Virus record (IMG/VR): IMGVR_UViG_3300032893_000044
Location: 1-61,743 of that record
Length of the DNA stretch: 61,743 nucleotides
Strand: one strand, 5' to 3'
Source of the DNA: a virus
Position numbers and translations under genes: made by a program. Below, piece after piece: positions 13,235 to 42,060 of this stretch. Within the stretch, counting starts at the first letter, position 1. Each line of letters starts with the position of its first letter. Under the pieces are notes generated by a model that saw only the letters and a program-made list of their open reading frames with translations, did no database searches and was not told where the DNA came from.

Positions 13235-13924
13235 TTAAACTTTAGTTTTCAGCCTTTTAATGGCCTGTAACGCTTGCTTTTCCGTTAGTTCATGGAAAGT
13301 ACCTACTTTATAGTATTCTAGCATTTTAGCAATACCCTCAGTATCTAATTTTTCAAAAGCGATTTCCTTTAACTCATTTAAGGTCGGCTCTAAAACAAAA
13401 TGCTGCGTCACATCATCGACACTAGACGGCCTGACCGCCGGTACGGGTATTGTTTTAACCGGTGCATTGATGCGCTTAGGTGAAGCTTTCTTGATATCAC
13501 CTTCCCCTTCATCTTCTGGACTTTCTTCAGACTGAGTAATGCCTAAAATAGCCATCAGAGCATATCTGCGCCCATAACTAATGGTAGCTCCTACAGATTG
13601 GATCCACCCTTTGCCCCGCATTTCTTCCACCATCAAATCTAAAGAAGACTGTAGCCATTGTCCAGAATTATGCAACAATAGAGTGGTAATTCTGACTGAT
13701 TTGTTGCATTCTCCTTCAATATGCTGTGTGATACTGAGCCCTTGTTGCGCTAAAAGCTTTCTTACTTGCCCTAATAAATTTTCTAAGGTGGCATAATCAT
13801 AACTATATTTTTTGCCTTCCCGAGTCAGCACATCGACATGACCATCTTTTTTAATATCCGAAACCAGCGTTTGAAATTGCGCTAAGGCTTGAGACAACTC
13901 TTTCAACTCTGTTGAATTATGCAT
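13235..13924 (-). CDS. ERF-family single-strand annealing protein
   Basis: 229 residues. ERF proteins anneal complementary single strands in phage recombination and in circularising or repairing phage DNA. Residues about 1-150 fit the family: YDYATLENLLGQVRKLL, a beta stretch with LLLHNSGQWL, then VGATISYGRRYALMAILGI, the most conserved ERF segment. An acidic linker follows, then a Pro-rich stretch and a helical tail. ATG 13924 sits behind AGGGGTAAGG. It is the first gene of a leftward operon, with its promoter in the shared region 13961-13991. Confidence 0.9.
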   Translation of the reverse strand: MHNSTELKELSQALAQFQTLVSDIKKDGHVDVLTREGKKYSYDYATLENLLGQVRKLLAQQGLSITQHIEGECNKSVRITTLLLHNSGQWLQSSLDLMVEEMRGKGWIQSVGATISYGRRYALMAILGITQSEESPEDEGEGDIKKASPKRINAPVKTIPVPAVRPSSVDDVTQHFVLEPTLNELKEIAFEKLDTEGIAKMLEYYKVGTFHELTEKQALQAIKRLKTKV

Positions 13925-13960
13925 CTTTCCTTACCCCTGTTATTTGTTAGATACCTAAAC

Positions 13961-13996
13961 CCTTTACTTTTAATACTTTACTTAGTAAAGTATAAT
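13961..13996. promoter_or_regulatory. divergent overlapping promoters with palindromic operator
   Basis: Rightward: TTTACT (13963-13968), 17 bases, TAAAGT (13986-13991). Leftward: TTTACT on the minus strand (13984-13989), 17 bases, TAAAGG (13961-13966). The two share almost all bases. The core is a 9-base inverted repeat, ATACTTTAC/GTAAAGTAT around TTA (13973-13993), and a perfect TATAAT lies at 13991-13996. This would serve the ERF operon and the ribbon-helix-helix gene. The latter is a natural candidate to bind the palindrome. Confidence 0.65.
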
Positions 13997-14023
13997 CATA
14001 TTTTTTTTTAGAGAGGATGTAAA

Positions 14024-14260
14024 GTGATTAAGAAAAAAAGAAGCACGGCGGAACGTTTGGCTTTACAAGAAGAACGCAAGAATCGGGTCACCTACATTAA
14101 ACTTCCTTCTTCGGCCGTGAAACAGGAACTAAAAGCGATCGCTCGCGCTGAAAACTTAACGTCTTTGTCTGCTTTGCTGCATATTTGGATTTTAAGAGGT
14201 TTAGAACAGTATAAAGCAGATAAGCAAATGAATCCGGAAACCAAATTAATTAAGTTTTAG
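14024..14260 (+). CDS. putative ribbon-helix-helix regulator
   Basis: 78 residues from GTG 14024 behind GAGAGG. After a basic N-terminus comes a strand TYIKLPSS (about 23-30), helix AVKQELKAIARAEN and helix SLSALLHIWILRGLEQ, the layout of a CopG/Arc-type ribbon-helix-helix fold. It is divergent from the ERF operon across a palindromic site and probably controls both. It overlaps the convergent VRR-NUC gene by 15 bases. Confidence 0.65.
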   Translation: MIKKKRSTAERLALQEERKNRVTYIKLPSSAVKQELKAIARAENLTSLSALLHIWILRGLEQYKADKQMNPETKLIKF

Positions 14261-14650
14261 ATAGTCGGTGAGACCTTTTTTAGCCTCATCGACGCTATAC
14301 CAGACCATAGTCTGATAGCCCAGTTCTTGGCAAGACGTTAAGAACTCCTGTTGGCTTTCAGTTAGTTTGTTTCCTTTAGTCTTAAATTCAGCGACAAGGC
14401 CGTGATAGGATGCTCGGGGATAAAGACAGATAATATCGCTGACGCCGGGAGTGACGCCTTCTGCTTTGAGTAGTTTTGCTTCTAGCGCATGACGGCTGCC
14501 GCCATTGGCGGGGTGAAAGGTCACTTTGCGTACCTGCGGGTATTGGTAGCGGAGCCATTGAAAAAATGCGCGTTGATGTTGCGCTTCTTGGCGTCGGGGT
14601 TTTTTGCGAGGCTTTTTAGGGGCTGGGGTAAGCAAATTTAGCATAATCAT
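14246..14650 (-). CDS. VRR-NUC domain nuclease
   Basis: 134 residues. The VRR-NUC fold is a PD-(D/E)xK nuclease often found in phages and in structure-specific nucleases. Seen here: QRAFFQWLRYQYP, HPANGGSR (53-60), GVTPGVSDIICL with the catalytic-type Asp, then AEFKTKGNKLTESQQ with the ExK pair and conserved Gln. A basic N-terminus (KKPRKKPRR) may bind DNA. Start coupled by ATGA to the AT-hook gene. It may act in recombination with the ERF protein. Confidence 0.88.
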   Translation of the reverse strand: MIMLNLLTPAPKKPRKKPRRQEAQHQRAFFQWLRYQYPQVRKVTFHPANGGSRHALEAKLLKAEGVTPGVSDIICLYPRASYHGLVAEFKTKGNKLTESQQEFLTSCQELGYQTMVWYSVDEAKKGLTDYLKLN

Positions 14651-16219: not shown

Positions 16220-16879
16220 ATGAAATTTGAAACCTGTAAATCTATTTATTCAACTTCTGTTAATAAACTAACTGGTATTGAGAAAGCTTTATTAATTTAC
16301 CTTTGCTATCGCACGAATGCGGAGGGAAATGCTTTCCCCAGTTTGAAGCGGATCAGTCGCGATATTAGTTACTGCTTAACAACAGTTAAAGGCACCATCA
16401 AAAGCCTCATTGAAAAAAACTTCATCCGGAAGATCCCAGCAGTCCCCCAATCCTCCCGACGCTCCAATGTTTATCAACTAAATCATAGCATGCTCTTTGC
16501 TCAGAAGCCTGTGGATAACTCTGTTGATAAGTACCGAAAATCTGTGGATAAGTTTGTGGATAAGTTGTTAGTAAATAGCCGGGTGGATAAACATACAGGG
16601 CGCGAGGCGACCACAGAATATATTAATAATATAAATACTAACCCTTATAATAATATTATAGTTAATCGAGGAGGGACGGCTTATCAAAAACAGCAATTAA
16701 AAGAAAAAGAAAAAAGGCAATTGGCTTATCTGCTCGCTTTATGCAAGCAAAGAAGCGTTTCTCAAAAAGCGGTACCTGTGGTCATTCCTGAGACTATACC
16801 TCCCTTAACCCCCCGTGCGCCTAAGACCTTAGCGGCCATCCTAGGAGAAAAAAATGTTACCTACGGCCAATTACGCTGA
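16220..16879 (+). CDS. replication initiator-like winged-helix protein
   Basis: 219 residues. Residues 1-85 form a helix-turn-helix domain found in phage and plasmid initiators (LTGIEKALLIYLCYRTN, FPSLKRISRDISYCLTTVKGT, LIEKNFIRKI). The middle (about 97-125) repeats VDN/VDK because the DNA there is a run of DnaA-box sequences. A basic tail follows. Initiators of this kind bind the origin and recruit the host replisome. The gene after it overlaps by 26 bases, and the two probably act together. Confidence 0.7.
   Translation: MKFETCKSIYSTSVNKLTGIEKALLIYLCYRTNAEGNAFPSLKRISRDISYCLTTVKGTIKSLIEKNFIRKIPAVPQSSRRSNVYQLNHSMLFAQKPVDNSVDKYRKSVDKFVDKLLVNSRVDKHTGREATTEYINNINTNPYNNIIVNRGGTAYQKQQLKEKEKRQLAYLLALCKQRSVSQKAVPVVIPETIPPLTPRAPKTLAAILGEKNVTYGQLR
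16510..16590 (+). other. candidate replication origin: DnaA boxes
   Basis: Three exact copies of TGTGGATAA, the complement of the DnaA box TTATCCACA, lie at 16510-16518, 16543-16551 and 16555-16563. Two one-mismatch copies are at 16522-16530 and 16582-16590. All are on the same strand inside the initiator gene. Confidence 0.75.
16616..16668 (+). other. AT-rich stretch, candidate unwinding element
   Basis: About 53 bases of nearly pure A/T (AATATATTAATAATATAAAT and TTATAATAATATTATAG) follow the DnaA boxes by 26 bases. Box array plus AT-rich element is the usual plan of a DnaA-dependent origin. Confidence 0.65.
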
Positions 16880-17531
16880 GTTAGTGGCTAGCGCGGAGCG
16901 CATTTTAACGCGCTTAACTCGTCACGTCCCCAATCACCAGCTAGATAACTGGCAAATGGTTAATTTGATTAAGCAGCATGGGGTGGAAAAGGTATTGATG
17001 ACGTTAAAGGCGGTGATCGAGAACAAGACGGGGAACGTAGCAAACTTTCCTCGTTATTTAAAAAGCTGTTTGCATGGTGGCTGGGAGCTTGCTGAAACGG
17101 GCCAAGGTGCCACGAACGGCAAAAACCGTCATCACACATATGAAGAAACGCAAGTCACGCTAGAATCGCAAAATCTTTCGTTTAAACGCACAGTTGAGAA
17201 AGAGCAGCGCATGCGAGAGATTTGGCAAGCATTACCGGTTGAGCAGCGTTACCGGATCAAGGCGTGGTTAAAAGCCTCTCCGTTGGAGCAATTGATGCCT
17301 GAGCAGATTTTGCAGCGGTCTTTACGGGCATTAGAGGCGGATGAACCTGATCGAGGGTCTTTTACGCTTTTGAATTTTGCTGAAACTCATATTCCTGAAG
17401 AATTTAGTTTACCCAAGCCTGATTTGAGTGTTTTAGGAGAAAAAGAAAAACCTGTTAATAAGCTGATTAATGAGCTAGAAAAAAAATTTGGCGCAGTTCA
17501 AGTGGAAGTTAAGCCCCAAACTTGGGGCTAA
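16854..17531 (+). CDS. putative replication accessory protein
   Basis: 225 residues, ATG 16854 behind AGGAG and inside the end of the initiator gene. Helical N-terminus, then NFPRYLKSCLHGGWEL (about 62-77), a pattern common in C-terminal parts of plasmid/phage initiators. Further segments WQALPVEQRYRIKAWL and an acidic-basic tail. It may be a separated initiator C-terminal domain or a helicase loader. Its own last codons (17512-17529) form the first AGCCCC hairpin. Confidence 0.6.
   Translation: MLPTANYAELVASAERILTRLTRHVPNHQLDNWQMVNLIKQHGVEKVLMTLKAVIENKTGNVANFPRYLKSCLHGGWELAETGQGATNGKNRHHTYEETQVTLESQNLSFKRTVEKEQRMREIWQALPVEQRYRIKAWLKASPLEQLMPEQILQRSLRALEADEPDRGSFTLLNFAETHIPEEFSLPKPDLSVLGEKEKPVNKLINELEKKFGAVQVEVKPQTWG
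17512..17529 (+). repeat. AGCCCC/GGGGCT hairpin 1
   Basis: AGCCCCAA/TTGGGGCT with a two-base centre, within the final codons of the gene ending at 17531. Preceded by GAAGTTA, as in hairpins 3 and 4. AT-rich downstream but no T run, so a weak terminator at best. Confidence 0.7.
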
Positions 17532-17612
17532 TAAATTAAGGATTAAAATATGTCTTGCACAATCCAATCTAGCGCGATTTTAAACAAATGTCAAGCGTAA
17601 TCTATCGAAAGT

Positions 17613-17633
17613 TTAGCCTCTAAGCGAGGCTAA
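17613..17633 (+). repeat. TTAGCCTC/GAGGCTAA hairpin 2
   Basis: Eight-base stem, loop TAAGC. An ATGTCAAG element precedes it at about 17588. No T run after the stem. Confidence 0.7.
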
Positions 17634-17718
17634 TGTAAGTGGTAAATTAGAAACCTATACAAAATGTAGCTTGAAAAATTAAGATAGCATAATGGCTAAT
17701 AAAATGTCAAGAGAAGTT

Positions 17719-17737
17719 TAGCCTCTAAGCGAGGCTA
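17719..17737 (+). repeat. TAGCCTC/GAGGCTA hairpin 3
   Basis: Same stem and loop as hairpin 2. Upstream is ATGTCAAGAGAAGTT. About 106 bases separate it from hairpin 2. Confidence 0.7.
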
Positions 17738-17818
17738 TATAGTATTTCACAGTTAAGAGGATCATGCCTGATCAAGTATAATATAGCCTAATAACTAGGT
17801 GCATGTCAAGTGAAGTTA

Positions 17819-17843
17819 AGCCCCCTTTGGGGCTATTTTTTTT
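17819..17843 (+). terminator. AGCCCC/GGGGCT hairpin 4 with T run
   Basis: AGCCCC, loop CTTT, GGGGCT, then A and eight T: a canonical intrinsic terminator. Upstream is ATGTCAAGTGAAGTTA, about 105 bases after the matching element of hairpin 3, so the three form a spaced series. Confidence 0.85.
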
Positions 17844-17863
17844 AAGCGTGACATGAAAAGTTA

Positions 17864-17879
17864 AGCCCCTCACGGGGCT
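17864..17879 (-). terminator. AGCCCC/GGGGCT hairpin 5
   Basis: AGCCCC, loop TCAC, GGGGCT followed on the plus strand by seven A, so it would terminate on neither strand strongly as read; the A run lies on its 3' side in plus. Preceded by GACATGAAAAGTTA, an imperfect copy of the series element. It lies 51 bases before the next start codon. Confidence 0.55.
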
Positions 17880-17930
17880 AAAAAAATGTACTTAGCAATG
17901 ATTAGCTTTTTTAGCTTATGGGAGAGACTT

Positions 17931-18173
17931 ATGATTGTCAACTGGGTTGCGGAATTTTTTGATACGGTGGTCTCGGTAGCTGGCAAATATGCCAGGTGGT
18001 TAAATATCAAAGGGAGACGGATTTGTTTTTTGATATGGGCTATCTGTTCCGTGTACTGGGTGGGGCGAGATATTGCGGTGGGACTTTATTCCCAAGCGGC
18101 TTTTGCAGTTTTTTCGGTAGGATTAAATGCCTATGGTTTTTTTAATTGGAAGAAAAATAAAATTGGAAATTAA
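17931..18173 (+). CDS. PnuC-like small membrane protein
   Basis: 80 residues from ATG 17931 behind GGGAGA; 17886 is an alternative start. Segments RICFLIWAICSVYWVGRDI and LYSQAAFAVFSVGLNAYGFFNWKK match the core of PnuC nicotinamide-riboside transporters, (W-x2-S-x2-W ... Q..F...N.YGF..W). It is much shorter than a full transporter (about 230 residues), with two or three membrane helices. Such fragments are common in phages; transport activity is unproven. Confidence 0.65.
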   Translation: MIVNWVAEFFDTVVSVAGKYARWLNIKGRRICFLIWAICSVYWVGRDIAVGLYSQAAFAVFSVGLNAYGFFNWKKNKIGN

Positions 18174-18249
18174 AGCTTGACACTTTTTAAAAGTCTCTTT
18201 ACACTTCAATTGACCATGAGTGTTAGTACTGTTATCGATGGTAAAAACT

Positions 18250-18265
18250 AGCCCCGGCAGGGGCT
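18250..18265 (+). promoter_or_regulatory. AGCCCC/GGGGCT hairpin 6 in proQ-like leader
   Basis: AGCCCC, loop GGCA, GGGGCT, ending 15 bases before the GGAGG of the FinO-domain gene. Position suits self-control of that gene by its own product. Confidence 0.6.
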
Positions 18266-18289
18266 CAACTTTATCGTTATGGAGGATGA

Positions 18290-18883
18290 ATGATGGAACA
18301 GCAACAAAAACCTTCTCGCAAAGTGCGGATGTCTGTTGGTCTTTTTGAAAAAGGACTAACCATTTTAAATGTTTTAAAACAAACTTATCCTAAATGTTTT
18401 TTTGAACCCGGTAAAGAAAAGCCTTTAAAAAAAGGTATTTTGTTAGATTTATTGCAAGCATCGGGTTTATCCTTTGAATCTCCTTCCTATCAAGCGATTA
18501 CAGCGGCAATTAATATTTACACAAGCACATTGAGTTACCGGGTAGGTTTAATTCGAGAAGACGCAGTACGCATTGATTTAGAAGGCAATGAAGTTGAGCC
18601 GATTAATTTACGGGAAAGAACTCAGGCAAAAATAGAAAAAATGAATTTTGAATGGAAGTTGAGCATGGCAGAAGCGGTGATGGCAAAAGATATTCGTAAA
18701 CAAGCCGGTTTTCATTATGCGCGCGATCGAAAAAGAAAAGAAGCTAAAAAGGCAACTATGTCCACGGTTGAAATGGCAGATAAAAGTGATGTGATAAACA
18801 CTGAAGCTGTATCAGCTTTGCCTGTCAAAAAGGAAACAATGCCTAAAATTGTTTTTAAAAAGAGGTTAAGCCAAGGGGTTTAA
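18290..18883 (+). CDS. ProQ/FinO-family RNA chaperone
   Basis: 197 residues, ATG 18290 (or 18293) behind GGAGG. The FinO domain spans about residues 20-125: LNVLKQTYPKCFF, then KPLKKGILLDLL, an AITAAINIYTSTLSYRVGLI helix and DAVRIDLEGNEVEPI, the order found in ProQ, FinO and RocC. A long charged helix (ERTQAKIEKM) and a basic tail follow. The family binds the base of terminator-type hairpins and matches small RNAs with targets. It lies next to a group of such hairpins. Known homologues on mobile elements silence host competence or plasmid transfer. Confidence 0.88.
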   Translation: MMEQQQKPSRKVRMSVGLFEKGLTILNVLKQTYPKCFFEPGKEKPLKKGILLDLLQASGLSFESPSYQAITAAINIYTSTLSYRVGLIREDAVRIDLEGNEVEPINLRERTQAKIEKMNFEWKLSMAEAVMAKDIRKQAGFHYARDRKRKEAKKATMSTVEMADKSDVINTEAVSALPVKKETMPKIVFKKRLSQGV

Positions 18884-18886
18884 AAG

Positions 18887-19327
18887 TTATGGTAATGTTA
18901 ATAAGATTTTCAGGAGTTCTTTTAAATCATTAAACTTGCTAAACAAAGTTAAATTTAAACGAGCATCCTCATCTATGGTGCTGTATAAAAATTTGTCATA
19001 TATCGATGTTAATGATGAGAAGCCATAACTCACATTTTTTATTCCTCCGTGCATGACATTTGCATAGCCAGTTGCTGATGATGAGAATCCATGACTAAAT
19101 CTCATAGACCTTCGAAAAGTAATGCGTTGACTGGTCATTCTTAAACTTAAAAACAACGCTTTTAAGACGCACCCTAAAAAATGCTTTGGATATCTTTTAG
19201 CATGTTGTAAATAAACTTTAAGCTGCACCTCAAACTCAACGACAGAGCTTTTTCTTTGATAAAGCCGCCAGATATCTTCAATGAAGACTTGTTGTTCAGA
19301 GGTAAACCAATCTACTTTTATATTCAT
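18887..19327 (-). CDS. hypothetical protein
   Basis: 146 residues. Helical N-terminal part (WFTSEQQVFIEDIWRLYQ), a basic Ser/Arg middle (SLRMTSQRITFRRSMRFSHG) and a Leu-rich C-terminus. Last gene of the leftward operon 20011-18887, ending four bases from the convergent ProQ-like gene. No family recognised. Confidence 0.6.
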   Translation of the reverse strand: MNIKVDWFTSEQQVFIEDIWRLYQRKSSVVEFEVQLKVYLQHAKRYPKHFLGCVLKALFLSLRMTSQRITFRRSMRFSHGFSSSATGYANVMHGGIKNVSYGFSSLTSIYDKFLYSTIDEDARLNLTLFSKFNDLKELLKILLTLP

Positions 19328-19332
19328 AAAAA

Positions 19333-19644
19333 TCAGTCAAAGAATATTTTTTTGGCTATGCTTTTGCAAGAATAATCTCGTAAAGCAGCGTAAAAGAGCG
19401 TTTGCAAGATCTCTTTTTTAACGGCAACACTGAAATATTCAACAGCCGAATGATCAAACATCATCGGGTCTTTGTTGATAAAGCGATACGCTATTTTTTG
19501 ACTTTCATTCCAAAGATTATAAAAAACAGGAGCGCCTTCTTTGATAGGCTCTAATAATACCGCCGCGTGGCCTAACCCCCATTCTGATTGATAAGCTTTT
19601 TCTTTTTTTTTCGTTCCTACAATAGGCTCTGTTAGCCAGCCCAT
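19333..19644 (-). CDS. hypothetical protein
   Basis: 103 residues from ATG 19644, just after the stop of the upstream gene and behind GAGAG. The longer in-frame reading from 19704 would overlap that gene by 58 bases. Pattern GWLTEPIVGTKKKEKAYQSEWGLGHAAVLLE, mixed alpha/beta. No family recognised. Confidence 0.6.
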   Translation of the reverse strand: MGWLTEPIVGTKKKEKAYQSEWGLGHAAVLLEPIKEGAPVFYNLWNESQKIAYRFINKDPMMFDHSAVEYFSVAVKKEILQTLFYAALRDYSCKSIAKKIFFD

Positions 19645-19646
19645 AG

Positions 19647-19805
19647 CTATCTCTCGACCGATGAAAGCCAATCTGAATCCGGCTTTAAAAGCGGTTCTTC
19701 GCAAAGATAAGTCAATATTAAGTCTGGCTTTTGCTTAGTATAGTCTTTAACCATCTCTTTTAAAATTTTGACCTCAATGGGGCTTAAATCAAAATCTTCA
19801 TTCAT
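19647..19805 (-). CDS. small hypothetical protein
   Basis: 52 residues, helical start (LSPIEVKILKEMVKDYTK). Its ATG overlaps the stop of the upstream gene as ATGA and its stop lies two bases before the next ATG, so it fits the operon exactly. Confidence 0.6.
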   Translation of the reverse strand: MNEDFDLSPIEVKILKEMVKDYTKQKPDLILTYLCEEPLLKPDSDWLSSVER

Positions 19806-20011
19806 GCTTCACCTCTTTCTTTTAGGGGCAACTCTGGCGCAGTATCACTTAAAACAACCGTTTCTTGCTTCCCCGTATTATCTTCATAAATAAAAGTTAA
19901 TGTCCAGCGGATAGGCGTTACCCGCTGACGAGCTTCTACGCAACATTGATGAATAGCTTGTTTAACCCGAATCAATAACCCATGATTTAGCCCGAACAGT
20001 CTTTCAATCAT
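19802..20011 (-). CDS. small hypothetical protein
   Basis: 69 residues. Helix LIRVKQAIHQCCVEARQ, then a beta hairpin RWTLTFIYEDNTGKQETVVL. First gene of the operon, 38 bases after a good leftward promoter. No family recognised. Confidence 0.6.
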   Translation of the reverse strand: MIERLFGLNHGLLIRVKQAIHQCCVEARQRVTPIRWTLTFIYEDNTGKQETVVLSDTAPELPLKERGEA

Positions 20012-20048
20012 TTTAACCTCGCTTTACCCAATCCTTTACCGCGCTTTA

Positions 20049-20077
20049 CTTATAGAAGATAAGAATCCTACTGTCAA
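20049..20077 (-). promoter_or_regulatory. sigma70-type promoter, leftward
   Basis: On the minus strand TTGACA (20077-20072), 17 bases, TATAAG (20054-20049). One mismatch from consensus in total. It serves the operon starting at 20011. Confidence 0.75.
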
Positions 20078-20146
20078 GTTATTTTTGTTGCATTTTTCTT
20101 AAACCTTCTTTAGAATAAGGCCAAATGTTTCTATTGGTCATAATTT

Positions 20147-20165
20147 AGCCCCTTCGGGGGCTTTA
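20147..20165 (+). repeat. AGCCCC-TTCG-GGGGCT hairpin 7
   Basis: Six-base stem closed by a TTCG tetraloop, followed by TTT. First of three hairpins in the leader of the rightward gene at 20381. Confidence 0.75.
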
Positions 20166-20222
20166 CTTCTGATTTACCCCTTGTTACTATACGTTTCGAT
20201 GTCGATGATATTTCTTATTTTT

Positions 20223-20241
20223 AGCCCCTTCGGGGGCTTTA
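20223..20241 (+). repeat. AGCCCC-TTCG-GGGGCT hairpin 8
   Basis: Identical in stem and loop to hairpin 7, 76 bases on, followed by TTAATTTTCTTC, a terminator-like T-rich tail. Confidence 0.75.
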
Positions 20242-20273
20242 ATTTTCTTCTCCTCTGTTAAAACGAAAAAGAT

Positions 20274-20289
20274 AGCCTCGTTAGAGGCT
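20274..20289 (+). repeat. AGCCTC-GTTA-GAGGCT hairpin 9
   Basis: Six-base stem of the CCTC type seen in hairpins 2 and 3. Followed by TAACTTTCTTG. Confidence 0.7.
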
Positions 20290-20380
20290 TAACTTTCTTG
20301 ACCGAATTTTAATTTACCCCTATCCTTTCTAAGATGCCTAAATTATTAGGTATTTAGTTATTAACTAACTAAGGGTGACA

Positions 20381-21098: not shown

Positions 21099-21362
21099 AT
21101 GCCAATGTTTGATTTTGAATGTGTTAAATGTAACACGCAACAAATAAATCAATGGTTAAAACTTTCTCATACGACCGAAGATTATCCCGTTTGTGAAAGT
21201 TGCGGGGACAAAATGAGTAAATTATATATTTCAGCCCCTGCCTTTAAAGGGGCTGATTTTATCAGTTCCAAGTTTAAACCCTCTAGCGCACCCGCGGGTG
21301 TTTCGGAACGTATCCATAAATTGCGCCAAAAGTCTGAGCTAGGCCCGGGGGTACAACCATGA
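21099..21362 (+). CDS. FmdB-type zinc-ribbon protein
   Basis: 87 residues, ATG 21099 behind GGAG. MPMFDFECVKC...CESCGDKMSKLYISAP has the paired CxxC sites and the trailing S-x-P of the FmdB putative regulatory family. A basic low-complexity tail follows. Its codons at 21231-21256 contain an AGCCCC/GGGGCT inverted repeat. Coupled by ATGA to the next gene. Confidence 0.8.
   Translation: MPMFDFECVKCNTQQINQWLKLSHTTEDYPVCESCGDKMSKLYISAPAFKGADFISSKFKPSSAPAGVSERIHKLRQKSELGPGVQP
21231..21256 (+). repeat. TCAGCCCC/GGGGCTGA inverted repeat in a gene
   Basis: Eight-base arms around TGCCTTTAAA, inside the zinc-ribbon gene. Same AGCCCC core as the intergenic hairpins. Confidence 0.6.
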
Positions 21363-23950: not shown

Positions 23951-24943
23951 GTGATTATGTATTTATTTTTATTTATTGCAATTTTAGCGCCGGCGGCGTT
24001 TTTCCTTTGGCATCAATTTAAACATGATAGATGCTGTACTGAATTGGGATGGTTTATAAACGGGGGTATAGCTGCTGTCTATGTTGTACTGATGATGATT
24101 CTTACCTCCCAATGTATTGTGCAAATTAAGCCGGGAGAGGTTGGGGTGGTCGTGGACATGTTGGGGTCACAAAAAGGGGTAGAAGATGAAGAACTCACGG
24201 TGGGTTTCCATTTTCTGTTACCGTGGAAAGATGTCTATCATTTTCCGATTTATGAGCAAAATCATCAGTGGATTGATGCAGATGGCTTTAATTTCCAAAC
24301 CATTGAAGGGTTATCTGTACATGCTGATTTAGGGATCACCTATCACTTATCTCCGGACAAGGTACACGAGCTTTTTTGGCGTTATCGCCGGGGGATGGAA
24401 GAAATCACCCATCTTTTTGTGCGTAACAATATCCGAGATGCCATCAATCGGGTCTCTTCCCGGATGAAAATTGAAGAACTTTACGGTGATAAAAAGGAAG
24501 AATTTTTTACGACCGTTCAGCGTCAAGTTCAAGGAGAGCTAGAAAGCCTTGGGTTTAAAATTTCTCATCTCTACATTATCGGGCAATTTAAGGTCCCTCC
24601 CATGGTCATGGAGGCTTTAAACCGCAAGATTGAGGCAACCCAAAAAGCCCAGCAACGCGAAAATGAACTCCGAGAGGCCGAAGCCGAAGCTAGAAAAGAA
24701 ATCGCTAAGGCGGAAGGAGAAGCAAAATCTCGCTTACTCAAAGCCAAAGCTGAAGCCGATGCGATCTATGTTCAAGCCGAAGCTAAAGCTAAAGCCAACC
24801 AGCTTTTAACCAAGTCCCTCAGCGATGAACTCATCATGTGGGATATGGTAAACCGTTGGGATGGAGTGATGCCTAAAATTACGGGGGACAAAGGCATGAT
24901 TATACAATTACCTATGTTAGGGGCAGAACATGGCAAAAATTAA
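23951..24943 (+). CDS. SPFH/prohibitin-like membrane protein
   Basis: 330 residues. GTG 23951 lies seven bases after AAGGAG; the ATG at 23957 is an alternative. Two hydrophobic segments at about 1-17 and 34-54, then an SPFH domain from about 58 (IKPGEVGVVVD ... GFHFLLPWKDVYHFP ... VRNNIRDAINRVSS) and a long Ala/Glu/Lys coiled coil (about 210-285). SPFH proteins form large membrane rings that hold or regulate proteases such as FtsH. Known in some phages, role unclear. It follows five small membrane-protein genes. Confidence 0.85.
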   Translation: MIMYLFLFIAILAPAAFFLWHQFKHDRCCTELGWFINGGIAAVYVVLMMILTSQCIVQIKPGEVGVVVDMLGSQKGVEDEELTVGFHFLLPWKDVYHFPIYEQNHQWIDADGFNFQTIEGLSVHADLGITYHLSPDKVHELFWRYRRGMEEITHLFVRNNIRDAINRVSSRMKIEELYGDKKEEFFTTVQRQVQGELESLGFKISHLYIIGQFKVPPMVMEALNRKIEATQKAQQRENELREAEAEARKEIAKAEGEAKSRLLKAKAEADAIYVQAEAKAKANQLLTKSLSDELIMWDMVNRWDGVMPKITGDKGMIIQLPMLGAEHGKN

Positions 24944-28739: not shown

Positions 28740-30353
28740 ATGGACAAGCTTGCCTTTTCTAGCTTGGAGTTTCCGCACTTGCTAGGGTATACGGACATTG
28801 CTCTCGCGGAACAGTCTCTTTATGCTTTTGTGAAGCAAGCGTGGCCTATTGTAGAGGGTCGACGGGTGTTTGTGGGTGGCTGGCACATTCAAGCCATTTG
28901 CGAGCATCTAGAAGCTGTGATTAAGGGCGATATTAAGCGGTTAGTCATTAATGTACCCCCGCGTACCAGTAAGTCAACGGTCGCGAGCGTGATGTTTTGC
29001 GCGTGGGCTTGGATTTCCCGGCCTGAGCTGCGCTTTCTCTATGCCTCCCATAAACAAGAGCTGGCCACGGTTCATTCGGTCTTATGTCGTAATTTGATTC
29101 TTTCTCCTTGGTACCAAGAGCGTTGGGCAGATCGCTTTCAGCTCGTCAAAGGCGAGATTCAAAAAGAAAAGTTTCAAAATGACCAGCGGGGAGAACGACT
29201 CACCACGGGTGTTACCTCAGGGCTCTTAGGAACAGGAGGCGATATCCTCTTGGCAGATGACCCCAATACGGGGGAAGATGTCACCTCCAAAGCCGAACGA
29301 GAAAAAAAAATCGCCTGGTTTCAGCATAGCTTCTCAACCCGTTTAAATGACCCCAAAAGCGGTTGTATCGTCGTGATTCAACAACGCCTCCATGAGAACG
29401 ATATCACGGGCTATCTCATTTCTAATGACCTCTACAAAGAGTATGTGAAGCTCATCCTCCCTATGGAGTTTGAACCCGCCAGACGCGCTAGAACCATTAT
29501 CTTACCCACATCCCATGGCAAAGTTTGGCAAGACCCGCGTAAAACCGCAGGCGAACTCCTCTGCCCTGACCGTATTGGCCCTAAAGAGCTTAATCGCCTC
29601 AAGAATCAGCTCGGCACAGAGCTCAATATCTCAGGACAGCTTCAACAAAGCCCCCATCCCGAAGGGGGTGCCTATATCAAAGCAGACTGGTTTCAATGGT
29701 GGGTGTCTAAAAGCGTGCCCAAGCTCATTCGTATCTTTCAAAGTCTCGATACCGCCTATACGGATAAAGCTGAAAACGACGCATGCGCAATCACCACCTG
29801 GGGCCTCTTTTATCATGAAAAGCTCAATTGCCGTTGCCTGCTATTACTAGATACCTGGTCTGACCGTGTTCTTTACCCTAAACTTCGTCGGATTGTCACA
29901 GCCGGCTATCATGACTACCGCTCGCACCATCGAAAAGTCCAACCCCATTCTGCCTATAAAACCGATACCCTTATCATCGAAACCAAGGCAGCAGGAGCCC
30001 CTATCCTCCAAGACCTGCATGAAGCAGGCTTACACGTGCACGAGTTCAATCCGGGTAAGATGGACAAAGTGGGACGCGTTTCTCTCTGTAGCGCACTCTT
30101 AGAAAATGGCCTTATCTTTGTTCCGGCAGACCCTAAGACAGACTTCAAAACGCTGCTACCCATTTCTGCCCAACTCATTGACCAATGCATTAGATTCCCT
30201 AACTCAGAGCATGACGATATTGTCGACACCATGACGCAGATGCTTATCTATGCACAGCAAAACCATATACTAGACCACCGCGACAACCCCAAATTCACCG
30301 AAGACTTCGGTCAACCTACCTCTATTGGCCTTTATAACGATTATACGCTGTAA
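28740..30353 (+). CDS. terL: terminase large subunit
   Basis: 537 residues, the motor that pumps DNA into the head and cuts it. Walker A-like PPRTSKST at 73-80, Walker B ILLADDP at 169-175. The nuclease half starts with SLDTAY (Asp337), and a later HDDIVDT holds further metal-binding Asp residues. Length is normal. It stands alone between divergent or unrelated genes, with no adjacent small subunit recognised. No strong ribosome site is seen before ATG 28740. Confidence 0.95.
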   Translation: MDKLAFSSLEFPHLLGYTDIALAEQSLYAFVKQAWPIVEGRRVFVGGWHIQAICEHLEAVIKGDIKRLVINVPPRTSKSTVASVMFCAWAWISRPELRFLYASHKQELATVHSVLCRNLILSPWYQERWADRFQLVKGEIQKEKFQNDQRGERLTTGVTSGLLGTGGDILLADDPNTGEDVTSKAEREKKIAWFQHSFSTRLNDPKSGCIVVIQQRLHENDITGYLISNDLYKEYVKLILPMEFEPARRARTIILPTSHGKVWQDPRKTAGELLCPDRIGPKELNRLKNQLGTELNISGQLQQSPHPEGGAYIKADWFQWWVSKSVPKLIRIFQSLDTAYTDKAENDACAITTWGLFYHEKLNCRCLLLLDTWSDRVLYPKLRRIVTAGYHDYRSHHRKVQPHSAYKTDTLIIETKAAGAPILQDLHEAGLHVHEFNPGKMDKVGRVSLCSALLENGLIFVPADPKTDFKTLLPISAQLIDQCIRFPNSEHDDIVDTMTQMLIYAQQNHILDHRDNPKFTEDFGQPTSIGLYNDYTL

Positions 30354-32918: not shown

Positions 32919-33503
32919 TTAAAAAATATTCTCGCCTAAATTTGACATCTGACTTTGTATTAATAACTTTTGCAGTCGGATAATAGCGGTTTGAATAGCT
33001 GATTTAATTAATAACTTTTCTGTCGTAGGCGGTTTGCTTAGCACATAATCCGCAACCGCTTCTTTGTGACCCGGGTGATCAATGCCTAAGCGGATACGCT
33101 GGAAATCTCTACTATGGAGGTGATGAATAATGTCTTTTAGTCCATTGTGTCCGGCATGTCCTCCCCCGACTTTAAAGCGAAATTGTCCAGCTTTAAGATC
33201 CAGTTCGTCATGCGCAACCAGGATGTTGACGGGGGCAATGTGAAAGTATTTTGCATAAGCACCTAACGCTTGTCCACTATGGTTCATATAAGTGGTTGGA
33301 ATTAACAAAGGATATGTTTTGCCGCCAAAGCTCCATTCCGTCAAACGGGCACTAAATTTTGTTTCTGTATTAAGCTTTAAACGAAATTGCTGGCATAAGG
33401 CTTCAATAAACCAGGCACCCGCATTGTGCCGGGTTTCAGCATACGCTGGGCCGGGATTACCCAGCCCAGCAATGAGCTGTATGCTGCTACCAGGCTGAGT
33501 CAC
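32919..33503 (-). CDS. pth: peptidyl-tRNA hydrolase
   Basis: Pth frees tRNA from stalled peptidyl-tRNA. 194 residues if started at GTG 33503, which overlaps the previous stop as GTGA; that equals the E. coli length. An ATG at 33527 is an alternative. All key residues are present: GLGNPG (Asn16), RHNAG (His26), TTYMN (Asn74), AHDELDL (Asp99), GGGHAGHNGLKDI (Asn120), each six places after its E. coli counterpart. It looks like a whole, active bacterial enzyme; such genes are rare in phages. Confidence 0.93.
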   Translation of the reverse strand: MTQPGSSIQLIAGLGNPGPAYAETRHNAGAWFIEALCQQFRLKLNTETKFSARLTEWSFGGKTYPLLIPTTYMNHSGQALGAYAKYFHIAPVNILVAHDELDLKAGQFRFKVGGGHAGHNGLKDIIHHLHSRDFQRIRLGIDHPGHKEAVADYVLSKPPTTEKLLIKSAIQTAIIRLQKLLIQSQMSNLGENIF

Positions 33504-33811
33504 CAGGGTTGACCTGCTTCGAGCCATGCTGCAATGCCGTCGATGGTGCAGGGAATGTCGACATTAAAAAAGTCGTTCTCGGGATATTTTGCTTTTACCA
33601 AGGTGAGCATGCCCGTCTGGTCATTAAAGCCGGTGCTCTCTGTCAGCCTCTCGTCTTCTGGCAGGCGCACTAACGCACGCACGAGTTCAATAAGGAACCT
33701 GACCTGCTGCTCATCTTCGTCTGCGTTGGGATCGAAGGGCTCAAGCATGTAAGGCACGCCGGCGCGGTATCTGTCCCACTTCTGCTGTATCATCTCTTTG
33801 TAACTTTCCAT
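33500..33811 (-). CDS. hypothetical protein
   Basis: 103 residues. Acidic, with EPFDPNADEDEQQVRFLIELVRALV and a C-terminal IDGIAAWLEAGQPW. Co-translated with pth (GTGA). First gene after the promoter at 33846. Confidence 0.6.
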   Translation of the reverse strand: MESYKEMIQQKWDRYRAGVPYMLEPFDPNADEDEQQVRFLIELVRALVRLPEDERLTESTGFNDQTGMLTLVKAKYPENDFFNVDIPCTIDGIAAWLEAGQPW

Positions 33812-39436: not shown

Positions 39437-39451
39437 ACCCCGTAAGGGGCT
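39437..39451 (+). repeat. ACCCC-GTAA-GGGGCT hairpin 10
   Basis: Short stem closed by a GNRA-type GTAA loop, 24 bases before the portal ATG, followed by AACAGC. A shortened member of the AGCCCC hairpin family in the leader of the head operon. Confidence 0.5.
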
Positions 39452-39474: not shown

Positions 39475-42060
39475 ATGGCTTTCGAAGACGAATTCGCTCT
39501 CCTAGAGCAAGACCTCTTACCAGACGATGCGTCTGCGTATGAAATCGCGGCAAAGGGCCCGGCAGACGGAGGAACAACCCCTGCCGGGAGCGATTTTTAC
39601 GAAAACCTCGCAGAGCACATCGATGTCTCCATTCTATCCGGTCTTGGGGCCAGATTACTAGACGAGATTAAAGAAGATATCGAATCCCGCCGTGAATGGG
39701 AACAAACCATCGCCCTCGTCATGAAGTATCTAGGCGAAAAGGTAGAAGAATCCAAAAGCGTTCCCTTCTTTCGCGCCTGTTCTTCCTTTGATACCACTCT
39801 CACCACGGCTGTCTATCGTAACTATAGCGTCTACAAACGCGAACTCTTTCCCCCGGAAGGTCCTTGCAAATCTAAAATCAATGGTATCCCCACCAAAGAA
39901 ACCGAAGAAATTGGGGAACGCCGCAAGATTTTTGCTAACTACTATCTAACGACAGTCGACAAAGAATATTACCCTGACAGCGAAAAACTGCTGTTATACA
40001 CCATCTATTGCGGCTCTGGTTTTAGGAAAATCTACCAAGACCCTTTAACCAAGATGCCGGTAAGCCGTTTCATTCGACCGCAAGATTTTATTGTCAACGT
40101 CCATACCACTACTATCCTTTCCTCCTCCCGCCTCACACACCTCTACGAGCTCCCCAAACAAGATATCTATCTGCGTCAGCAGGATGGGTATTTTACCGGG
40201 GAGTCCCTCCCTAATGTGAGCGACGATACGGAAAGCGAGCCCAGTGTTATCACGGAGACCACCAAAAACATCACCGGCATCCAGACGGACAATACCGAAA
40301 ACAAATCGCTGTTCAAGTTCTATGAATGTCACGTCATCCTAGACTATACCGACTTAAAGGGCCAAGACCCCGCTGCCGACCGCAACATTCCCTGCCCCTA
40401 CATCGTTACCATCTGCGAAGCCACAAAAAAGATTGTGCGCATTCAGCGGAATTGGGAAGAAGGCGACGAGCAGTTCAAACGCAAAGAATACTTCGTGCAC
40501 TACCAGTTCCTCCCAGGCTTTGGCATGTATGGCATCGGGATGGCCCATTTAACCGGATCCAATGCCATTACCCTGACAACGATTTTGCGTCAGCTCATTG
40601 ATGCTGGCACGCTCAAGAACTTCCCCGGCGGCTTAAAGTCCACGTCTGCACGCTCGAATCAAAACAACAAGTCGATCGGGCCCGCGGAGTGGCAAGAGGT
40701 GGAGACCGGAGGCAAAGCCATTCAAGACTGCTTCATGCTCATGCCCTATGCAGAGCCTTCCCAAGTCTTGGCTGCCTTGCGCGGTGAACTCAAAACTGAA
40801 ACCTTAAATGTCGTCGCAGCCGCCGAGGAAGGCCTCCAAGAAATGGGGCCTAATACCGCACCCACGACAGCCTTAATCAGCCAGGAAGTTGCAGCACGCT
40901 TGCAATCGGCTTCTTTAATGTCCATGCATTCGAGCTTGGCATACGAATTTAGCTTGCTGTTCGCCATCTTTGGCGAATGCTTGCCGGATGAGCCTTATCC
41001 TTTCAAGGTGCCAGGTTATGAGGGAGCCGTTCTAAAGACGGACTTTAACAACAATATTGACACAGTCCCGGTCTCTAATCCGAATGTGCTCACCTCATCC
41101 CATCGTCTTATCAATGCCGATGCTTTGCTGAAGCTCGCCTCCCAAGCTCCCGATGTCTACAACATCCGTGAAACCCAAAAACGCATGTTAGAGGCGATGA
41201 ACGTCGAAAACATCGACGCGGTCTTAAAGCCAGAGCCTGTCCCGCGCTCTTTAGATGCAGTCAGTGAAAACATGCTCATTTTAAAGGGGCAGCCGGTCAA
41301 AGCCGCGCACTTTCAAAATCACAAAGCCCATAACACGGTGCATAACAAGTTTATTCAAGACGTGAGTCAAAACCCTATCTTCATGCAGCTGAACCCCATG
41401 GCGGTTCCTGATACCACGCTGCATATCCAGCAGCACTCGGCCTTAGCTGTCTTGCAAGAGTGGTACGCACAAGACCCGCTCTTTGCCGACAGCATTGTGC
41501 AAAAGTTCATGCAGCAAAACAACATCAATCCGCAAGAAGAACTTTCTGAAGAACAAATCATGCTTATCCCAGAAGTGCAAAACCGGGTGACAGAGATTAA
41601 CGCCGAAGAAGCCATGCAGCAGATGGAAGCACAAGCCGCTCAGCAGCAGGCCATGATGGAAGCGCAGATGAATCAGGTTGACCCGGCGCAGGTGATGCTA
41701 GCAGACGTCGAGCAGCAGCGTGAAAAGACGCAGATTGAAGCCGAAGTTGCGCTGCGTAAAGTTGAGACCGAAAAAGAAATCGCTGACCAGAAAGCCGAGA
41801 CCGAAAGCTTTAAGACGCAGCTCAAGTTTGAGGGCGACCAAGCCAAGATTGAAGCGGACCAAGAGATGGCCCGCGAAAAGGCTGAAGTCGATGTGATGTT
41901 AGCGGAAATGAAGCAGCAGGCAGCCCACGAGCAAAACCTCTTAAAACATGAAGCAGCCAAACAGCAAAACGAAATGAAGCATCAGGCGGCCAGAGAACAA
42001 CAGGCCAATCAGCATCTTCACCAATCCTTACATAAACCTAACCCTAAAGAGGAAAGATAA
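39475..42060 (+). CDS. portal protein
   Basis: 861 residues, forms the ring at the head vertex through which DNA passes. N-terminal acidic segment, then a body that fits large podovirus portals (RREWEQTIALVMKYLG, FFRACSSFDTTLTTAVYRN, CGSGFRKIYQDP ... VSRFIRPQDFIVNVH, YGIGMAHLTGSNAITLTTIL). From about residue 690 a Gln/Glu/Lys coiled coil runs to the C-terminus, which may form the long barrel. It opens the head gene block. Confidence 0.88.
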   Translation: MAFEDEFALLEQDLLPDDASAYEIAAKGPADGGTTPAGSDFYENLAEHIDVSILSGLGARLLDEIKEDIESRREWEQTIALVMKYLGEKVEESKSVPFFRACSSFDTTLTTAVYRNYSVYKRELFPPEGPCKSKINGIPTKETEEIGERRKIFANYYLTTVDKEYYPDSEKLLLYTIYCGSGFRKIYQDPLTKMPVSRFIRPQDFIVNVHTTTILSSSRLTHLYELPKQDIYLRQQDGYFTGESLPNVSDDTESEPSVITETTKNITGIQTDNTENKSLFKFYECHVILDYTDLKGQDPAADRNIPCPYIVTICEATKKIVRIQRNWEEGDEQFKRKEYFVHYQFLPGFGMYGIGMAHLTGSNAITLTTILRQLIDAGTLKNFPGGLKSTSARSNQNNKSIGPAEWQEVETGGKAIQDCFMLMPYAEPSQVLAALRGELKTETLNVVAAAEEGLQEMGPNTAPTTALISQEVAARLQSASLMSMHSSLAYEFSLLFAIFGECLPDEPYPFKVPGYEGAVLKTDFNNNIDTVPVSNPNVLTSSHRLINADALLKLASQAPDVYNIRETQKRMLEAMNVENIDAVLKPEPVPRSLDAVSENMLILKGQPVKAAHFQNHKAHNTVHNKFIQDVSQNPIFMQLNPMAVPDTTLHIQQHSALAVLQEWYAQDPLFADSIVQKFMQQNNINPQEELSEEQIMLIPEVQNRVTEINAEEAMQQMEAQAAQQQAMMEAQMNQVDPAQVMLADVEQQREKTQIEAEVALRKVETEKEIADQKAETESFKTQLKFEGDQAKIEADQEMAREKAEVDVMLAEMKQQAAHEQNLLKHEAAKQQNEMKHQAAREQQANQHLHQSLHKPNPKEER

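Follow-up and report, generated by a model that had tools for sequence, protein, structure and literature searches.

Directional hairpins around a FinO/ProQ-domain gene of a tailed phage suggest cognate small RNAs for a phage-borne chaperone

FinO-domain proteins are believed to stem from mobile elements, and reviews mention that phages also carry copies. In the literature searched, no phage FinO protein had a known RNA partner, and a 2025 review on phage small RNAs (sRNAs) mentions neither ProQ nor FinO (PMC12197685). The question raised by the locus described here is whether a phage protein of this kind is accompanied by RNAs of its own. The window is the whole of IMG/VR record IMGVR_UViG_3300032893_000044 (61,743 bases), which can be assigned to a tailed phage because it contains a terminase gene (28740-30353), a portal gene (39475-42060) and other virion genes. 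Its FinO/ProQ-domain gene, here called proQ, stands among a family of hairpins. In this paper we describe these hairpins, their promoters and the protein and, from this one genome, consider it slightly more probable than otherwise that the phage encodes a FinO/ProQ-type chaperone together with its own cognate short RNAs. An initial annotation had already paired the chaperone with hairpin RNAs; this is still the best reading, strengthened by promoters and tails, and is corrected below as to strand, members and the parallel drawn with Legionella. A phage locus with the protein beside candidate RNAs would offer a direct way into the function of viral FinO proteins.

Nine hairpins of the form UAGCCYC-loop-GRGGCU lie within 2.8 kb around the gene, all of them where the initial annotation had placed nine hairpins of one design. 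Five are on the left (17512-17529, 17613-17633, 17719-17737, 17819-17834 and 17864-17879), and the other four are at 18250-18265, 20147-20162, 20223-20238 and 20274-20289. The pattern AGCCYC-N3-12-GRGGCT has 10 matches in the window against 0.11 expected from shuffles, the tenth being 21233-21254. The loops of the nine hairpins are 4 to 6 bases long and vary in length and sequence with the pairing preserved: five of the six stem pairs are invariant, and at the sixth, three of the nine hairpins have U-A in place of C-G, both partners having changed. Below the stem, the facing bases of every unit are U-U, U-A or U-C. The stems are symmetric and the flanking tail is asymmetric, and therefore the hairpins have a direction. 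This can be read from the tail, which follows on one side only and is AACUU in seven of the nine hairpins: the five left hairpins have it on the minus strand, and the hairpin preceding proQ and the three to the right of the gene have it on the plus strand. With one mismatch allowed, GRGGCTWAACTT occurs 11 times against 1.4 expected; there are five exact copies on the minus strand within 17506-17869, and plus-strand copies at 18260, 20157 and 20284.

To avoid circularity, a covariance model was trained on the five left hairpins alone. It recovered the remaining four hairpins and no others at E values of 6e-6 to 1e-3 (3e-4 for the hairpin in the proQ leader), each of them in the plus-strand orientation. 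The next match (E 0.014) is inside an open reading frame (ORF) and is not a hairpin, and no further family member was found elsewhere in the 61.7 kb. We regard the hairpin family as firmly established. Two sites once counted with it fall outside: that at 21231, within a zinc-ribbon gene, has a longer loop and no tail, and its score on the opposite strand is only 12.8 bits; that at 39437 has an imperfect ACCCC/GGGGCU stem and no score. Rfam gave no match above threshold in the window, and weak matches in the region, including a repBA pseudoknot (E 3.5), are at the level of chance. Mobile hairpin repeats were rejected, as no copies occur outside the proQ leader and two intergenic blocks, and none of the annotated genes was seen to encode a transposase; hairpin promoters of the N4 type were likewise rejected, as the largest ORF encodes 870 amino acids (aa) and so no giant virion RNA polymerase is present.

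The repeats might instead act as DNA, either as a replication origin or as protein-binding palindromes beside the replication initiator gene. The array does lie about 0.6 kb downstream of an O-like/DnaD-like initiator gene, in a stretch of 35% GC and with a spacing of about 103 bp, but the one-sided tail, in fixed direction relative to the promoters, suits RNA over a symmetric DNA site, as does pairing that is kept, by the double C-G to U-A change, while loops vary. We hold this reading to be very improbable.

The direction of the left hairpins can be compared with that of promoters. Sigma-70 promoters were scored at every position on both strands (123,406) with an approximate matrix, and ranks below refer to this scoring. 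The starts of the predicted RNAs were set about 7 bases past the -10 box and their ends at the tail, so that both are estimates. The features of the left block (17.5-17.9 kb) are:

17913-17941, minus strand: U0 promoter, TTGACA-17-TAAGCT, rank 31
17857-17906, minus strand: predicted RNA U0, about 50 nucleotides (nt), from promoter, hairpin (17879-17864) and tail; ends estimated
17819-17834, minus strand: second hairpin behind U0, not preceded by its own promoter; its plus-strand side is followed by ATTTTTTTT (a T8 tail) and has the look of an ordinary terminator
17780-17809, minus strand: U1 promoter, TTGACA-18-TATATT, rank 2
17711-17773, minus strand: predicted RNA U1, about 63 nt, hairpin 17737-17719 and an extra 5' stem-loop; ends estimated
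17681-17710, minus strand: U2 promoter, TTGACA-18-TATCTT, rank 3
17606-17674, minus strand: predicted RNA U2, about 69 nt, hairpin 17633-17613; ends estimated
17566-17594, minus strand: U3 promoter, TTGACA-17-TAGATT, rank 8
17505-17559, minus strand: predicted RNA U3, about 55 nt, hairpin 17529-17512; ends estimated
17753-17782, plus strand: promoter before a small membrane-protein gene, TTAAGA-18-TATAAT, rank 21; the leader holds hairpins 17819 and 17864

A plain consensus promoter scan lists the same sites, the proQ promoter at 18177-18205 included, except 17941. In this 0.8-kb region, 0.07 sites scoring 11.4 bits or more would be expected and four were observed, a number that not one of 300 resamples attained. 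Each such promoter is followed, in the same direction and about 30-50 bases downstream, by a family hairpin. Eight promoter-hairpin pairs, from six promoters including plus-strand 17753, occur in the window; seven related phages have 0-3 pairs, unclustered. When the four minus-strand units are aligned with the proQ leader, the common order is TTGACA, -10 box, private stretch, hairpin and AACUU. Hairpin starts at 17512, 17613, 17719 and 17819 are spaced by 100-106 nt, so the 105-base units of the initial annotation are real as a spacing. Block 17532-17930 is an intergenic stretch of low GC content with no open frame of at least 40 codons in any frame, and U3 overlaps the 3' end of the plus-strand ORF 16854-17531. 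The units are predicted to fold into a largely free 5' part and a 3' hairpin (z-scores -2.0 to -3.3). A small peptide of 15 codons in U1 was set aside because the other units lack it.

Because the promoters are followed by same-strand hairpins with tails in non-coding sequence, the simplest reading of the left block is four tandem minus-strand sRNA genes of about 50-69 nt, and we are fairly confident that small RNAs are made from this strand. An RNA from 17532-17930 had been anticipated with its strand missed; the expected RNAs are minus-strand, at about 17906-17857, 17773-17711, 17674-17606 and 17559-17505. Also overlooked were the tail's strand, the promoters on the minus strand and the copying of the unit layout by the proQ leader.

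These cassettes bear on the plainest alternative, that the locus is the main early control region of the phage, punctuated by terminators or insulators of a common gammaproteobacterial type, and that the FinO gene is there by coincidence. This region holds many of the phage's highest-scoring promoters, and lone hairpins of the same type and tail are found in other phages and genomes. Eleven IMG/VR contigs each hold one similar hairpin, none with an array and none with a FinO gene, so a single hairpin of this type is ordinary; the array is unique within the data searched. We nevertheless consider mere punctuation unlikely, as it does not account for the same hairpin and tail nine times over, four of them in ORF-free promoter cassettes, for a conserved tail that is poor in U, for the confinement of the family to this region of the 61.7 kb, or for related phages without such clusters.

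The candidate partner of the predicted RNAs is the protein.

18290-18883, plus strand: FinO/ProQ-domain protein, 197 aa, from PF04352 and predicted fold

The domain covers approximately residues 24-117 and matches PF04352 with E 1.7e-16 (60.6 bits against a cut-off of 27), and the C-terminal extension is basic and helical. An AlphaFold model made from two sequences (mean pLDDT 72.7) has RocC as its best match in the PDB, with a TM score of 0.80 on target length and E 2e-6. The FinO/ProQ assignment is firm, and the gene seen in the initial annotation is a real one. FinO proteins have been reported from Proteobacteria. They bind a stem with a short 3' tail (PMC9977716; PMC9674577), RocC and ProQ preferring tails of about 5 nt, and the stem and tail shared by the phage units, here called the handle, match such ligands in size. 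In RocC the 3' end of the RNA is held by Gly52, Tyr87 and Arg97 (PMC9674577); in our alignment these match G49, Y83 and R94 of the phage protein, so that the 3'-end pocket is kept. The equivalent of the N-cap residue Ser70 is kept as well, while Lys71 is replaced by Tyr and Arg75 by Thr71. The Arg75 position is 80% conserved and is otherwise mostly Lys, and in RocC this residue may also touch the first tail uridines. The phage tails start with (U/A/C)AA in most units, in place of UUU, and our guess is that the altered stem-contact residues and the altered tail start go together. A constant tail facing an altered stem-contact site would make a clean test of RNA recognition by FinO domains. Given that the predicted RNAs are made, it is rather likely that this protein holds them.

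The remaining four hairpins, with plus-strand tails, stand in the proQ leader and to the right of the gene:

18177-18205, plus strand: proQ promoter, TTGACA-17-TACACT, among the six best of the window
18212-18272, plus strand: leader of the proQ messenger RNA (mRNA), with hairpin 18250-18265 and tail CAACUU, in the layout of U0-U3; a possible attenuator or autoregulatory site
20147-20162, plus strand: family hairpin, tail UUACUU; weak promoter 20088-20116 upstream, rank 134
20223-20238, plus strand: family hairpin, tail UUAAUU; weak promoter 20162-20190 upstream, rank 91
20274-20289, plus strand: family hairpin, tail UAACUU; just before the rightward promoter 20298-20326

The rightward promoter (rank 16) serves the gene at 20375. 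Because the proQ leader bears the same handle as the predicted RNAs, its sequence suggests that proQ may be autoregulated through it, as a natural extension of the reading above.

The same leader invites a reading without guide RNAs, in which the hairpins are partial terminators before proQ, the membrane-protein gene and the rightward genes from 20375. The chaperone would bind them directly and alter read-through, in the manner of PcnR, and the short transcripts would be by-products. The handle in the proQ leader, the plus-strand promoter at 17753 with hairpin 17819 and its T8 tail downstream, the three handles that closely precede the rightward promoter at 20298, and the PcnR precedent (PMC9977716) can all be cited for it. 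It leaves unexplained four minus-strand cassettes with no same-strand gene before the next cassette, and we think such a switch improbable. The small membrane-protein gene has its start at 17886 in the ORF list, but 17931 is more probable from the homologue in record G001. The protein (17931-18173, plus strand; 56% identity to that homologue) weakly resembles the C-terminal portion of NMN transporter family members (PF04973, E 2e-4, below the cut-off).

In the reading that we favour, a chaperone with its own cognate RNAs, host RNA polymerase would initiate at the four minus-strand sigma-70 promoters, and each would yield an RNA of 50-69 nt whose 5' part, about 25-45 nt long, is private and whose 3' handle is shared with the others; this handle is the UAGCCYC/GRGGCU stem with a short tail ending in AACUU. 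The chaperone would grip the 3' end of this handle, shielding the RNA and aiding the pairing of the 5' part with a target. Through the proQ leader, with its strong promoter and the same handle, the protein would also regulate its own production, either through attenuation or by binding to this leader. A complete private viral sRNA regulon, in which the phage brings its own chaperone and at least four tandem guide RNAs and the handle in the chaperone mRNA leader senses free chaperone, is a more tentative proposal, to which we give somewhat less than an even chance. If the RNAs are guides, the virus would bring a full RNA-silencing kit, with no borrowed Hfq.

How does this compare with known systems? 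RocC/RocR of Legionella pneumophila pairs a FinO-domain chaperone, the best structural match here, with a short sRNA that has a terminal hairpin and a short tail, ending in U-C-U in RocR and in A-A-C-U-U in the phage handle. RocC, however, is chromosomal and has one main sRNA, whereas the phage has the protein and several candidate RNAs. Mobile elements of Legionella had been thought to carry a FinO-type protein with sRNAs, but in the literature consulted the Legionella plasmid brings only the sRNA RocRp, which relies on host RocC (PMC9977716, PMC11472951). RocRp elements thus carry the sRNA alone, and the known stem-contact residues of RocC are changed in the phage protein. FinO/FinP, FopA/Inc and RepX offer the likeness of a mobile element with a FinO protein and an RNA of 70-80 nt antisense to a leader (Inc 70 nt, RepX 75 nt; PMC8136791), and the predicted phage RNAs are close to Inc and RepX in length. 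The RepX tail is GCUCU, and therefore a pure U run is unnecessary for binding by a FinO protein. The FopA gene, too, is near replication functions. FinO/FinP and FopA/Inc differ in having one antisense RNA that overlaps its target start, whereas the phage has four in tandem with a common handle; FinP and RepX also have a purine-purine mismatch below the stem (PMC12001967) that is absent in the phage units, which resemble RocC and ProQ ligands. PcnR of IncI2 plasmids is a FinO-type protein acting on a leader stem-loop and is a model for the proQ leader, although it acts on the leader of a replication gene and without an sRNA (PMC9977716). VpdS and PreS are phage-encoded sRNAs that also depend on an RNA chaperone, Hfq, but in their case that of the host. 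Since the phage carries both the protein and candidate RNAs, its locus appears closer to plasmid FinO/FinP or FopA/Inc than to RocRp. A FinO-type chaperone with cognate RNAs is already a known kind (FinO/FinP, FopA/Inc, RocC/RocR), and the phage-borne form would be new.

Several observations weigh against a chaperone with guide RNAs. The tails are U-poor for strong intrinsic terminators, and Tyr and Thr stand where RocC grips the stem with Lys71 and Arg75. Control of phage genes, as the initial annotation had envisaged, found no support, because in pairing with about 100 phage gene starts the RNA bodies did not outperform shuffled ones, with the lone exception of U0 with its own opposite strand. 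A search for exact complements returned mostly the hairpins themselves and a few 11-12-mers. The suggestion of a host target, by analogy with competence, is also unsupported, with no indication of competence genes as targets. In position, the four RNAs are antisense to the leader on the plus strand (17532-17930) and to the end of ORF 16854-17531, so that a FinP-like cis mode is conceivable; they do not cover the start at 17931 or any known start codon.

Conservation lends the reading no support either. The nearest relatives are IMG/VR records with a terminase identity of about 49%, and about 40 related records were gathered through the terminase and a conserved virion gene. One of these, G008 (IMGVR_UViG_3300049216_000357), has a FinO gene (126 aa, L037:1453-1833) and is without the hairpin family; the rest have neither. 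The array was not found in these relatives, in IMG/VR and GTDB species genomes, where its pattern gave isolated matches only, or in plasmids and GenBank phages, among which the hairpin/proQ region has no relative. The protein has no close relatives in IMG/VR, GTDB genomes or INPHARED, and its matches in the plasmid collection are ordinary ProQ only; records very close to the window may be missing from the database scans. The FinO gene of G008 directly follows a probable replication-protein gene, which, together with the window phage, suggests that FinO genes recur near replication genes within this phage group.

Other genes of the phage include a recombination module with an ERF-type annealing protein and a VRR-NUC nuclease (13235-14650, minus strand) and an SPFH/Band 7 family protein (23951-24943, plus strand; PF01145, E 5e-25). 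An unusual phage cargo is the gene for a peptidyl-tRNA hydrolase (32919-33527, minus strand; PF01195, E 5e-58), which also matches PHROG 30156.

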